This document shows, one piece after another, positions 1,386 through 4,866 of a stretch of 12,329 bases of DNA; within the stretch, counting starts at the first letter, position 1, and each line of letters begins with the position of its first letter. The notes beneath the pieces are model-generated. The model was not told the origin of the DNA and made no database searches. It worked only from the letters and a program-made list of their open reading frames with translations. Origin of the DNA: Halothiobacillaceae bacterium (GTDB taxonomy: Bacteria > Pseudomonadota > Gammaproteobacteria > Halothiobacillales > Halothiobacillaceae); NCBI GenBank assembly GCA_011380105.1, contig DRZW01000067.1:1-12329 (forward strand), written 5' to 3'. Both the position numbers and the translations under genes were made by a program.

Positions 1386-2879
1386 TTATGCAAACCATGG
1401 CGCGCGCGCCGCCATAATCAGTTGTCCGGCTTGGGTTTCGTCGACACCCTCGTATTCGCATAACTCATCGATCGATAATTCAGCCAAATCATCCGAGTTA
1501 TTAATACCGGCTGCGCGCAACGCTGCTGCTAATGGCGCAGTCATACCTTCCAAGTCTTCTAGAGCAAGCGCATCGCCCGGTGCCGCCTTATCGCTGCTAG
1601 CGTTATCACCACCGGAAATCGCCTGCACTAACAGGGCATCACGGGCGCGATTCCGCAGCTCTTCTGCGATTTCTTCATCAAATCCTTCAATACTTGTCAG
1701 CTCTTCGCTGGGCACATAAGCAACTTCTTCGAGCGTGGTAAAGCCGGCCTCGACCAGCGCTTCACCGACTTCCTGGTCAACATCCAGCTCAACGACGAAC
1801 TGTTCGAGAGCCTGCTTGGCTTCGGTCTCGCCTTTCTTGAGCGCTTCCTCTTCGCTCATCACATTGATCTGCCAACCGGTCAGTTGACTGGCTAACCGGA
1901 CATTCTGCCCACCGCGGCCAATCGCCTTGGAGAGGTTATCCTCACTGACGGCCACATCCATGCTGCCGGCATCTTCGTCAACGACGATGGATACCACTTC
2001 GGCGGGCGACATGGCATTAATGACAAACTGTGCCGGGTTTTCATCCCAGATAATAATATCAATGCGCTCACCGGCCAGTTCATTGGTGACTGACTGAACC
2101 CGCGAACCACGCATGCCCACGCAGGTGCCGACTGGATCAATCCGAGGGTCCTTGGAAGCCACGGCGATTTTGGCACGCAGACCAGGATCGCGTGATGCGC
2201 TTATCAAATCAATTAGCCCCTGCCCAATTTCTGGCACTTCGAGCTTAAACAGCTCCATCAGAAATTCTGGCGCGGTGCGCGAGACGAAAATCTGCGGACC
2301 GCGTTGCTCGTAGCGCACATCGGTGATGTAACCACGCAGGCGGTCACCGCTACGCACTGATTCACGCGGTATCATTTCATCTCTGGGGATAATAGCCTCA
2401 GCATTACCACCCAAATCCAGAATCACATTACCCCGATCAATGCGCTTAACCTGCCCCATGACCAGCGTACCTTTGCGCTCAAGATAGGCTTCAACCACTT
2501 GCCGGCGCTCGGCCTCGCGCACTTTTTGTACGATAACTTGCTTGGCAGCTTGGGCAGCAATACGCCCGAATTCGACCGATTCAATCTCTTCTTCGATGAT
2601 TTCACCGGGTTGAATATCAGGATTGTCCAACCGGGCAGCCTCTAGAATAATTTCACGCTCAGGATTTTCTGAGGTATCCGCATCAACGACCTTCCAGCGG
2701 CGGAAGGTTCGATAAGAACCGTCCTCGCGACGAATCTCAACACGGGTGTCAATATCCCCACCATGACGCTTACGCGCTGCTTGGGCTAATGCTGCCTCGA
2801 TCGCCTCGAAGATGACCTGGCGCTCAACGCCTTTCTCATTCGAGACCGAATCGACGACAAAAAGTATTTCTTTGCTCAT
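1386..2879 (-). CDS. nusA: Transcription termination/antitermination factor NusA
   Basis: NusA binds RNA polymerase and nascent RNA, and modulates pausing, intrinsic termination and antitermination. The 497-residue product is almost the same length as E. coli NusA (495). The RNAP-binding N-terminal domain covers about 1–125 and an S1 domain about 135–200 (KGTLVMGQVKRIDRGNVILDLG... region). The KH1 loop GMRG is at 255–258 and the KH2 loop GRGG at 321–324. Two acidic helix-hairpin-helix repeats typical of gammaproteobacteria follow at about 365–420 and 435–490. The start at 2879 matches the family N-terminus (MSKEIL.VVD), although its Shine-Dalgarno is weak. The gene begins 21 bp after the rimP stop, consistent with one transcript rimP–nusA–infB. 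In E. coli NusA represses this operon through leader terminators; that this also happens here is inference. Confidence 0.98.
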   Translation of the reverse strand: MSKEILFVVDSVSNEKGVERQVIFEAIEAALAQAARKRHGGDIDTRVEIRREDGSYRTFRRWKVVDADTSENPEREIILEAARLDNPDIQPGEIIEEEIESVEFGRIAAQAAKQVIVQKVREAERRQVVEAYLERKGTLVMGQVKRIDRGNVILDLGGNAEAIIPRDEMIPRESVRSGDRLRGYITDVRYEQRGPQIFVSRTAPEFLMELFKLEVPEIGQGLIDLISASRDPGLRAKIAVASKDPRIDPVGTCVGMRGSRVQSVTNELAGERIDIIIWDENPAQFVINAMSPAEVVSIVVDEDAGSMDVAVSEDNLSKAIGRGGQNVRLASQLTGWQINVMSEEEALKKGETEAKQALEQFVVELDVDQEVGEALVEAGFTTLEEVAYVPSEELTSIEGFDEEIAEELRNRARDALLVQAISGGDNASSDKAAPGDALALEDLEGMTAPLAAALRAAGINNSDDLAELSIDELCEYEGVDETQAGQLIMAARAPWFA

Positions 2880-2900
2880 ATTGCTTAATTATTTGCTCAG

Positions 2901-3407
2901 TTATCGAGCCGCACGGCGCTTTTTCTTACCACGACCCCGTTTTTTATCTTGGAAATCGTATACAAGGTTCGCCTTCTCCACTTCTTCGAAGCGAAACTCC
3001 AACGCCCCTAGATTATCGATAATGACGGTGATATTACCCTCATCATCGACCCCCTCAATCAGACCGGCAAATTTTCGCTGCTGGTTTACCGGTTTGTGCA
3101 AACGCATTTGCACTTTGTGCCCGGCGAAACGGGCAAAATCGTCAGTGCGAAACAAACGGCGCTCGACTCCTGGGGATGAAACCTCCAGCCGATAAGCACC
3201 CGGGAAGGGATCTTCCACGTCTAACACACCTGATAGCGCGTCGCTGATCTCGACGCAGTGATCGAGCGTCAAACCTTCCGGATGATCTACATATACGCAC
3301 AACAGACCGGAAGGGCCGCCGCGAAACTCGCCGCCGACCCATTCAAAACCGAGGTCCTCAACCACCGGTTTTAACATTGCTTCAATTCCTGTCGGTATTG
3401 CCTGCAC
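2901..3407 (-). CDS. rimP: Ribosome maturation factor RimP
   Basis: RimP helps assemble the 30S ribosomal subunit. The product has the family core: PVVEDLGFEWVGGEF near the N-terminus, the conserved VSSPGVERRLF segment in the middle, and a C-terminal Sm-like domain ending in KANLVYDF. It is 168 residues against about 150 in E. coli; the extra length is a strongly basic tail (KKRGRGKKKRRAAR). The start is uncertain. GTG at 3407 has a poor Shine-Dalgarno but gives an N-terminus of family-like length. ATG at 3377 has AGGA at 3387–3390, 9 nt upstream, and would remove 10 residues, leaving the conserved PVVEDLGF block only a few residues from the new start. I keep the GTG because E. coli RimP has about ten residues before the aligned position. 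It is the first gene of the rimP–nusA–infB operon. Confidence 0.95.
   Translation of the reverse strand: MQAIPTGIEAMLKPVVEDLGFEWVGGEFRGGPSGLLCVYVDHPEGLTLDHCVEISDALSGVLDVEDPFPGAYRLEVSSPGVERRLFRTDDFARFAGHKVQMRLHKPVNQQRKFAGLIEGVDDEGNITVIIDNLGALEFRFEEVEKANLVYDFQDKKRGRGKKKRRAAR
3378..3390 (-). promoter_or_regulatory. Internal Shine-Dalgarno that could set an alternative rimP start
   Basis: On the minus strand AGGA (3387–3390) lies 9 nt before an in-frame ATG (3375–3377). This is a better ribosome binding site than anything in front of the GTG at 3407, so translation might begin at either codon. The sequence alone does not decide between them. Confidence 0.35.
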
Positions 3408-3458
3408 TTGTTCTGGTTTTCTCTGTAGGTTGCCCCGTTCAAATCAGACCTCAACCGC

Positions 3459-3475
3459 AAGCGTCAGCGCCGCTT
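3459..3475 (-). repeat. Small hairpin in the rimP leader
   Basis: On the minus strand AAGCG (3475–3471) and CGCTT (3463–3459) can pair around a 7-nt loop, between the U-rich tail of the rod and the rimP start. It is a short stem of uncertain meaning. The rest of 3408–3489 shows no gene or clear signal. Confidence 0.25.
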
Positions 3476-3489
3476 AGCATCTTTCCCGC

Positions 3490-3515
3490 AAATAAATAAA
3501 GCCCCCGTGGAGACT
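3490..3515 (-). terminator. Terminator-like 3' end of the structured RNA
   Basis: The 3' side of the rod (GTCTCC, then GGGGGC at 3506–3501) is followed by TTTATTTATTT (3500–3490). The G-rich strand can close with the upstream GCCCTC (3587–3582). Alternatively it can form a local 6-bp hairpin, AGTCTC with GGGGCT (two G-U pairs). Either form ends in the U-rich tail. The interrupted U-run suggests partial rather than complete termination, which would let rimP be transcribed by readthrough. Confidence 0.45.
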
Positions 3516-3612
3516 AGATAAGGATTAGTGAATGTCGTCTTCCATAATCAGAACAACATTCAGAGTAATCCTGTCTCCCTTGAGGGCCCGACATTATGCA
3601 TCAATCGCGGGA
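3490..3612 (-). ncRNA. Candidate structured RNA: small RNA or leader/attenuator of the rimP operon
   Basis: Read on the minus strand, this stretch folds into one long imperfect rod. Stem 1 pairs 3587–3582 with 3506–3501 (GCCCTC/GGGGGC, one G-U). Stem 2 pairs 3578–3573 with 3514–3509 (GGAGAC/GTCTCC, perfect). Stem 3 pairs 3572–3566 with 3527–3521 (AGGATTA/TAATCCT, perfect). Stem 4 pairs 3561–3553 with 3538–3530 (GAATGTTGT/ACGACATTC, one G-U). That is 28 base pairs with small internal loops, a 6-nt bulge (3520–3515) and a terminal loop of about 14 nt. The rod is followed directly by TTTATTTATTT (3500–3490). A strong promoter lies just upstream. No ORF or tRNA fits. The predicted transcript is about 120 nt. 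It resembles 6S RNA in being a long bulged duplex, but it is shorter and I see no sequence match to 6S, 4.5S or Rsm/Csr RNAs. A leader attenuator for rimP–nusA–infB is equally possible. Confidence 0.6.
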
Positions 3613-3617
3613 TTAGG

Positions 3618-3646
3618 AATATAAGAATCTTCGGGGCAAATGTCAA
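3618..3646 (-). promoter_or_regulatory. Near-consensus sigma-70 promoter reading toward rimP
   Basis: On the minus strand a perfect -35 TTGACA (3646–3641) and a -10 TATATT (3623–3618) are separated by exactly 17 bp. Initiation is expected near 3610–3612. This is the best housekeeping promoter in the window. It lies 37 bp after the dnaJ stop and drives the structured RNA and, by readthrough, probably rimP–nusA–infB. No other promoter of similar quality was seen between here and rimP. Confidence 0.75.
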
Positions 3647-3682
3647 TGCAAATCAACCCTGACCCTATGAAACACCGTGGTT

Positions 3683-4840
3683 TTAATCGCCCCGTAGGTC
3701 ATCGAAGAACTTTTTAACCGAGTCAAAGAACGAGTGCTGCTTCGGTCGGTGTTTGGCTGCATACGAGGCGGTACCGTCCGGGTCTAGTGAGCGTTCGAAT
3801 GCTTCGAGCAACTCTTTTTGCTCGCGGTTGAGGTTAACCGGGGTTTCTACATGCACGGTGACCAAAAGATCACCCCGCGGACCTCCACGAACCGGGCTTA
3901 CTCCTTTACCACGCAGACGGAAGACTCTGCCGGTTTGGGTTTCTGCGGGAATTTTTAAGTTAACGCGACCGTTAAGTGTCGGCACTTCAATCTCACCACC
4001 CAAAGCGGCCGTGGCAAATGAAATGGGCATATCGCAGGTTAAGTCGGCACCTTTGCGCTTAAATAATGGATGTGGTTTGATCTCAATTGCCACATATAAA
4101 TCCCCCGGTGGGCCGCCTTTCTCCCCCGGTTGGCCTTCACCAGAATGACGGATCCGATCACCAGTATCCACCCCTGGCGGAATTTTGATCGACAGGGTTT
4201 TTTTGGTTTCAACCCGACCAGTGCCGCCGCAATCTCGGCAGGGATCTTCTAAGATTTGGCCTTCACCGCCACAATCCGGGCAAGGTTGCTGAATAGAGAA
4301 AAAGCCTTGCTGAATGCGCACAACACCGCGTCCATGGCAGGTGGTACAGGTTTTTCTACCCGTGCCCGGCTTCGCACCGCTGCCGTTGCAGGTTTCGCAG
4401 GTTTTGGTGGTCGGGATCTGGATCTCGACGGTGGTGCCGTTAACCGCCTCTTCCAAACTAAGGCGCAGGTTGTATTGCAGATCAGCCCCACGCGCCGCAC
4501 CGCCACGAGCGCGGCCGCCGCCGAAAATATCACCGAACACATCGCCGAAGATATCGGAGAACCCAGCACCAGCACCGCCACCAAAACCGCCACCAAAACC
4601 GCCACCGGCTTGGCCATCTACTCCAGCATGACCAAATTGATCATAGGCAGCGCGTTTTTGTGGATTTGAGAGGACTTCAAAGGCTTCTTTTGCTTCTTTA
4701 AAACGCGCTTCTGCCTGATCATCGCCCGGATTACGATCCGGGTGATATTTCATTGCCATCTTGCGATAAGCTTTTTTTAGCTCATCTGCCGAGGCGTTTT
4801 TGCTCACCCCGAGCACTTCATAGTAATCTCGTTTAGCCAT
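3683..4840 (-). CDS. dnaJ: Chaperone protein DnaJ (Hsp40)
   Basis: DnaJ is the Hsp40 co-chaperone that delivers unfolded clients to DnaK and stimulates its ATPase. From ATG at 4840 it is 385 residues (E. coli 376). The J-domain has HPD at 33–35. A Gly/Phe-rich region follows (about 78–110), with Asp-Ile/Val-Phe (DIF/DVF) motifs. The zinc-binding domain has four CxxCxGxG repeats, with Cys pairs at 148/151, 165/168, 187/190 and 201/204. The C-terminal client-binding domains follow, so this is a complete type I DnaJ. An upstream in-frame ATG at 4861 would add MRHLRDI, but the family N-terminus [11 protein letters not shown] and a GAGAG ribosome binding site (4846–4850, 5-nt spacing) favour 4840. 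It follows dnaK by 162 bp containing hairpins. No clear terminator lies after it, so some transcripts may run on toward rimP. Confidence 0.97.
4574..4606 (-). repeat. 12-bp tandem repeat encoding the DnaJ Gly/Phe segment
   Basis: The plus-strand unit ACCGCCACCAAA occurs at 4574–4585 and 4586–4597, with a partial third copy at 4598–4606. Being 12 bp, the unit keeps the reading frame and encodes GGGF blocks of the DnaJ Gly/Phe linker. Copy number could vary by slippage without breaking the gene. Confidence 0.7.
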
Positions 4841-4866
4841 AATATCTCTCAAATGGCGCAAGTGTT

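Follow-up and report, generated by a model that had tools for sequence, protein, structure and literature searches.

A putative leader terminator of rimP-nusA-infB with a 72-nt rod in its loop in a Guyparkeria genome

On the minus strand of the window (the whole 12,329-nt stretch of DNA analysed here, contig C6 of its assembly), a promoter-like sequence and a long hairpin lie between dnaJ and rimP, which raises the question of whether the hairpin is a small RNA of its own or a part of the leader of the rimP-nusA-infB operon. The source assembly is a 1.19 Mb, 64% complete MAG of the genus Guyparkeria. Its RimP is at most 74% identical to the nearest of 35 named loci, which are Guyparkeria and Halothiobacillus records, and DnaJ identity is 81-84% in nine of the ten further genomes of this genus, namely those with a full-length dnaJ match. 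The operon was assigned in the window from the domain matches of rimP and nusA, and the start codon of rimP is GTG in 19 of 20 contexts (window included) and ATG in L018. The features discussed below are collected in Table 1.

Table 1. Features of the dnaJ-rimP region, in the order of minus-strand transcription
Feature	Positions	Strand	Remarks
dnaJ, gene upstream of the element	3683..4843	-	Pfam DnaJ domains
Sigma-70-type promoter, TTGACA-N17-TATATT	3618..3646	-	11/12 consensus; upstream of rimP-nusA-infB
5' leader up to the terminator stem	3590..3611	-	putative start near 3611 (CCCGCGA), placed from the -10 position
Predicted terminator stem, 5' arm, GGGCCCTC	3582..3589	-	from folds; counterpart GGGCCCC in 19 relatives
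72-nt imperfect palindrome (rod) filling the terminator loop	3509..3580	-	from folding; 4 nt at that place in 19/19 relatives
Inner stems of the rod	3578-3573/3514-3509, 3572-3566/3527-3521, 3562-3553/3538-3529	-	from the fold
Predicted terminator stem, 3' arm, GGGGGCTT	3499..3506	-	from the fold, two terminal G-U pairs; counterpart GGGGCTT in relatives
U-rich tract, TTTATTTATTT	3490..3500	-	putative 3' end of a terminated transcript of ~120 nt
rimP	2901..3407	-	GTG start; Pfam RimP_N domain
nusA, downstream of rimP	2879-1386	-	Pfam NusA domains

Promoter and hairpin in the window

The minus-strand promoter named in the original prediction was found, with TTGACA at 3646-3641, a spacer of 17 nt and TATATT at 3623-3618. 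Downstream of it, the minimum free energy structure of the stretch 3590-3498 is a single unbranched rod with 33 predicted pairs, in stems of 8, 6, 7 and 10 (+2) pairs (-40.6 kcal/mol). The rod and its four stems, which had been proposed with 28 bp, were thereby borne out, and the count of 33 arises from the addition of G-U pairs and of an apical 2-bp stem. Pairing far beyond chance had also been claimed, and indeed none of 200 dinucleotide shuffles folded as stably (mean -22.6 kcal/mol, z -5.79); for the wider stretch 3660-3480 the z was -3.12, again with 0/200 shuffles as stable. The arms of the closing GC stem are GGGCCCUC and GGGGGC (3506-3501), and six inner pairs of this stem have pair probabilities of 0.94-0.998. 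The U-rich tail expected after the rod is present as TTTATTTATTT at 3500-3490, a tract that is more interrupted than those of the relatives described below. As had been anticipated, no tRNA was found.

A weak hairpin, AGTCTC-CACG-GGGGCT, also precedes the same T tract (6 pairs, -6.0 kcal/mol), and this hairpin and the two outer stems of the rod would compete with each other. It is counted under a looser rule (three G-C pairs) and not under the rule of the survey below. We also noticed a 15-nt inverted repeat (3448-3462 and 3820-3834, 93% complementary), possibly a chance pair, whose arms lie in the rimP 5' UTR and within dnaJ, respectively. When sites were sought by bare consensus in 2500-4500, two promoter-like sites were found against 1.4 expected, and four terminator-like sites against 2.5 expected. 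Since these counts are near chance, judging the element needs relatives, and it is conservation that carries the case.

Leaders of relatives and rimP upstream regions

Of 29 relative dnaJ loci examined, 19 (L002-L020) have rimP downstream within the retrieved stretch, and all 19 carry both the promoter (TTGAC, a 17-nt spacer and TATATT, or TATAGT in L018) and a hairpin of the form GGGCCCC-N4-GGGGC-TTTTTT followed by A or C and then more T. The T tract reads TTTTTT(A/C)TTTT, with one extra T in L017. The sequence CCCGCGA at the presumed start is present in 15 of the 19 and differs in L009, L013, L017 and L018. The distance from the -10 box to GGGCCC is 32-37 nt in the relatives, 68 nt in L018 and 28 nt in the window, and the predicted leader transcript is about 50-60 nt in the relatives and about 90 nt in L018. 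Two alignments, one of 12 sequences (the window and 11 relatives) and another of 10, showed the promoter, the start region and the stem to be well conserved. Covariation lends the structure no support: in 10 family leaders none of the seven pairs of the terminator stem had changes on both sides, the stem being nearly invariant and the rod being known from one sequence.

The rimP leaders of Halothiobacillaceae (Guyparkeria and Halothiobacillus) are thus like the window in promoter architecture, stem and gene order, and unlike it in their 4-nt loop, their longer T run and the absence of the rod. As regards conservation of the four stems, the outermost stem and the U tract are common to the relatives whereas the inner rod is absent from them, a division that the original prediction had missed. 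In L013, L016, L017 and L018, an extra ORF (~170 codons by eye) lies between dnaJ and the rimP promoter, and the distance from the dnaJ stop to the -35 box is 616-667 nt. L209-L213, which belong to a different genus of the family, retain a GGG(T/C)CC...GGGCC hairpin with a T run upstream of rimP, even though four of the five have dnaJ on a separate contig and no dnaJ match was found in G018.

We then surveyed rimP upstream regions with a rule that accepts any hairpin within 300 nt, not just the one nearest rimP, with at least five pairs, at least four of them G-C, and a loop of 3-9 nt. A short-loop terminator hairpin (loop 3-6 nt, T run after it, within 300 nt) was found in 133 of 136 rimP upstreams, compared with 18, 7 and 13 of 136 in three dinucleotide-shuffled sets under the same rule. 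The hairpin is present in 108 of 110 upstreams of the class sample and in 25 of 26 of the family, where only the window lacks it. The class sample was drawn from 134 class genomes, 124 of which have rimP, one of them the window's own; from the other 123, 110 upstreams were used, leaving out G052 (contig edge), the 12 lowest-scoring genomes and the additional copies carried by G077 and G157. Among these 110, two are short (L180, 233 nt; L190, 173 nt), and the strand assignments were entered by hand. The family set consists of the window, the 19 gap relatives and six genomes of other genera; G007 has no rimP match. A short-loop hairpin is lacking in three upstreams, those of the window, L176 and L185, and in L185 no hairpin was found. 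In L176 a 39-nt terminator hairpin with 12 outer pairs follows a sequence resembling a tRNA by eye, and this may be loop extension on a smaller scale. Our survey is in line with the rimP-leader ranking of Naville and Gautheret (2010, PMC2965389), in which, according to the accessible part of that paper, rimP comes first among genes with predicted attenuators and rimP-leader is a widespread predicted attenuator.

Because promoter, leader and hairpin with U tract recur in 19 of 19 gaps, and hairpins in 133 of 136 rimP upstreams, we read the element as the leader terminator (attenuator) of the rimP-nusA-infB operon, with a probability of roughly 0.76. This was one of two readings offered at the outset, and it is supported by the conservation just described, with termination and control by NusA as its putative parts. 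In the mechanism that we envisage, the sigma-70 promoter would start a leader transcript near 3611, and after about 110 nt the stem GGGCCCUC/GGGGGC would close just before the U-rich tract; in equilibrium folds of the growing transcript, the closing stem was absent at a length of 100 and present at 110. A share of the RNA polymerases would then stop near 3490 and release an RNA of ~120 nt, while the rest would read on into rimP, nusA and infB. That share would probably be set by the elongation complex, most plausibly through NusA feedback as described in E. coli; the element could also be a plain constitutive terminator without regulation. The rod is predicted to fold before the closing stem forms, and should therefore hold the arms together so that the hairpin still closes. 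It would also contribute an extended duplex as a potential RNase III substrate.

The 72-nt rod and alternative readings

Between the arms of the terminator stem lie the 72 nt of the rod (3580-3509) plus three loop bases. Folded alone, the rod has an energy of -26.4 kcal/mol (z -4.36). Removal of the 72 nt in silico leaves GGGCCCTC-AAC-GGGGGCTTT, a hairpin like those of the relatives (-9.5 kcal/mol, versus -11.9 kcal/mol in each of the 19), and the stems would therefore have two histories, the outermost corresponding to the terminator of the relatives and the inner three being found only here. Judged from these sequences, the rod has the appearance of an insertion in the loop of a conserved terminator, and the four-stem rod, on the same reading, is not one evolved unit.

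The search for other copies of the rod covered several collections. In its own 64%-complete assembly, no second full copy was found by BLAST, by a pattern allowing up to three mismatches or by a structure model; the pattern returned the rod itself and two matches with three mismatches, which is at chance level as the backward-pattern control gave one match. The structure model (R1) matched one of 30 genomes, its own. In the family, BLAST at E <= 1 gave matches in 4 of 27 genomes including its own, the other three being 15-25-nt matches with E of 0.3-0.65; among 369 class genomes, three had matches including its own, the other two being 22-24-nt matches with E of 0.003-0.004. No match was found in plasmid and phage records, one 22-mer of the rod had no exact match in viral contigs, and none of the repeats within 2900-4300, which might have indicated a local duplication, overlaps the rod. 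As the assembly is incomplete and a MAG, further copies or an assembly error at the rod are possible.

These searches bear, as regards origin only, on the idea that the rod is a mobile or dispersed palindrome (MITE- or REP-like) that landed in the loop by chance and has no role. The insertion is clean, palindromic and seen in one genome only, as such an element would be; no second full copy was found in the 64%-complete assembly, however, and the family and class genomes yielded only the short matches given above, with none in plasmid or phage records. We consider this origin possible but doubtful. It concerns where the rod came from and is compatible with the leader-terminator reading, so that both can be true together. 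Another view of the rod is that it is a working module grafted into the terminator loop of an essential operon, where, folding ahead of the closing stem, it would alter the speed of closing, or would offer a docking or RNase III site. We hold this to be unlikely; if true, it would mean that a conserved attenuator gained a new input via a loop insertion in one lineage. For the present, the rod is an unusual variant in one genome with a putative, unproven role.

The remaining alternatives concern the element as a whole. Transcripts running on from dnaK-dnaJ would meet the same terminator, and the hairpin could mainly be the terminator of that operon, with the rod protecting the 3' end of its mRNA and attenuation of rimP being incidental. 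By the scan used, the hairpin is the first terminator-like site downstream of dnaJ in 20 of 20 gaps; in none of them did the scan detect a site between the stop codon of dnaJ and the promoter of rimP, so termination of dnaK-dnaJ transcripts may be a further role of the hairpin. Yet the pair of promoter and terminator stays with rimP despite the extra ORF in L013, L016, L017 and L018, and all five genomes of other genera that have dnaJ and rimP on different contigs (L209, L210, L211, L213 and L214) keep a terminator hairpin upstream of rimP. That ending dnaK-dnaJ transcripts is the main function is improbable, and the roles of dnaK-dnaJ terminator and rimP leader do not exclude each other. The own promoter, the stable rod and the U-rich end would also suit a stand-alone small regulatory RNA of ~120 nt that acts in trans, 6S-like or other, with rimP expression being secondary, and the accessible text of PMC5391140 counts the rimP leader of E. 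coli among attenuator-derived sRNAs associated with ProQ. We nevertheless think it very improbable: a 6S RNA match over the Rfam cut-off lies elsewhere in the same assembly (G000:C16:3702-3888), each of the 11 genomes of the genus has one 6S RNA match, the element has no Rfam match, and the leaders of the 19 relatives are without the rod and hence offer no conserved trans-acting body. The resemblance to 6S RNA (RF00013) is that of a rod-like RNA with its own promoter; the RF00013 covariance model had no match at 3490-3646. The stand-alone 6S-like RNA, the other reading offered at the outset, is accordingly not supported, and the original interpretation as a whole is partly supported. Least credible to us is attenuation by a leader peptide, in which translation of a 26-codon ATG ORF (3594-3514, minus strand) would control formation of the hairpin. 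This ORF covers most of the rod, and its stop lies immediately ahead of the outermost rod arm; however, it is not conserved in the relatives and has no Shine-Dalgarno sequence recognisable by eye and a 5' UTR of 17 nt, its counterparts in the genus differ widely in where they end (27 to 107 codons), and a counterpart of its ATG is absent from the Halothiobacillus leaders.

Comparison with known rimP leaders

The leader terminator proposed here resembles the published rimP-leader, which, in the available part of its description (PMC2965389), is likewise a terminator hairpin with a U tract, situated in the 5' UTR of the rimP-nusA-infB operon no more than 130 nt from the start codon. The description places it 4-130 nt before the start codon; in the window the U tract ends at 3490 and rimP starts at 3407. 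It also has a terminator hairpin followed by a T stretch, which here are a hairpin that encloses the 72-nt rod and the tract TTTATTTATTT. The GGGc(...)gCCC stem motif, as given in the available text, is absent, the arms being GGGCCCUC and GGGGGC in the window and GGGCCCC and GGGGC in the relatives. The element thus differs from the rimP-leader in the stem of the window and the relatives, GGGCCC(C/UC)...GGGG(G)C, and in the loop of the window, which is the 72-nt rod as against 3-6 nt in the 133 other hairpins.

No known RNA family had been recognised in the sequence, and the Rfam search likewise gave no relevant match: scans of the window, the gap and 10 of the 19 relative loci returned only matches far below the gathering scores. 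For RF01770 (gathering score 47 bits), there was no match in the own genome at E <= 0.001 and none over the cut-off in the 57 genomes of the relatives search; the E. coli positive control scored 102 bits. At E <= 1, weak matches appeared in 44 of the 57 genomes; among the matches listed, those in G028, G035, G040, G045, G047 and G050, of other families of the class, lie just upstream of rimP, and none lies in the dnaJ-rimP gap of a Halothiobacillaceae genome. The element is therefore a leader terminator working like the rimP-leader and is not a member of RF01770, if the attenuator reading holds.

According to the accessible sections of PMC6511841, rimP in E. coli is preceded by two terminators, t1 and t2, NusA controls the operon that encodes it, transcripts of the operon rise when there is less termination by NusA, and the operon transcript has two RNase III sites. 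In the part of PMC7815308 at hand, expression of an E. coli rimP 5' UTR fusion in a Rho mutant is lower, not higher, which indicates that the control in E. coli is not simple. The rimP leader is also named as a core RNA of Piscirickettsia in the text available of PMC5955585. In the open-access literature on the rimP leader and on loop insertions in terminator hairpins, as far as its accessible text goes, we recognised no description of the present element, and no open-access paper on Halothiobacillus with dnaJ and rimP was found. The regulatory element itself is of a known kind, in a family for which we found no description of it, and has an unusual loop insertion in one genome. What we report is a putative leader terminator of rimP-nusA-infB in Halothiobacillaceae, in which the promoter is conserved and the leader very small. 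Since the window has the 72-nt rod in the terminator loop and its relatives lack it, they provide a natural comparison that could test what loop length and inner helices formed beforehand do to termination and to the response to NusA.

Set beside the E. coli metY-rimP leader (RF01770), the window has the same operon position, and t1 is likewise a hairpin of the CCCC/GGGG type, with T6 after it. We read the E. coli hairpin GCCCCGATTTATCGGGG-T6 as the published t1 from the order of the sites, and the Halothiobacillaceae stem is nearer to it than to GGGc...gCCC. Unlike the E. coli leader with its t1, t2 and RNase III sites, the window has one terminator found rather than two, no tRNA and no RF01770 match. 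A long rod forms in the fold of the E. coli leader as well, where it lies upstream of t1 and not, as in the window, inside the terminator.
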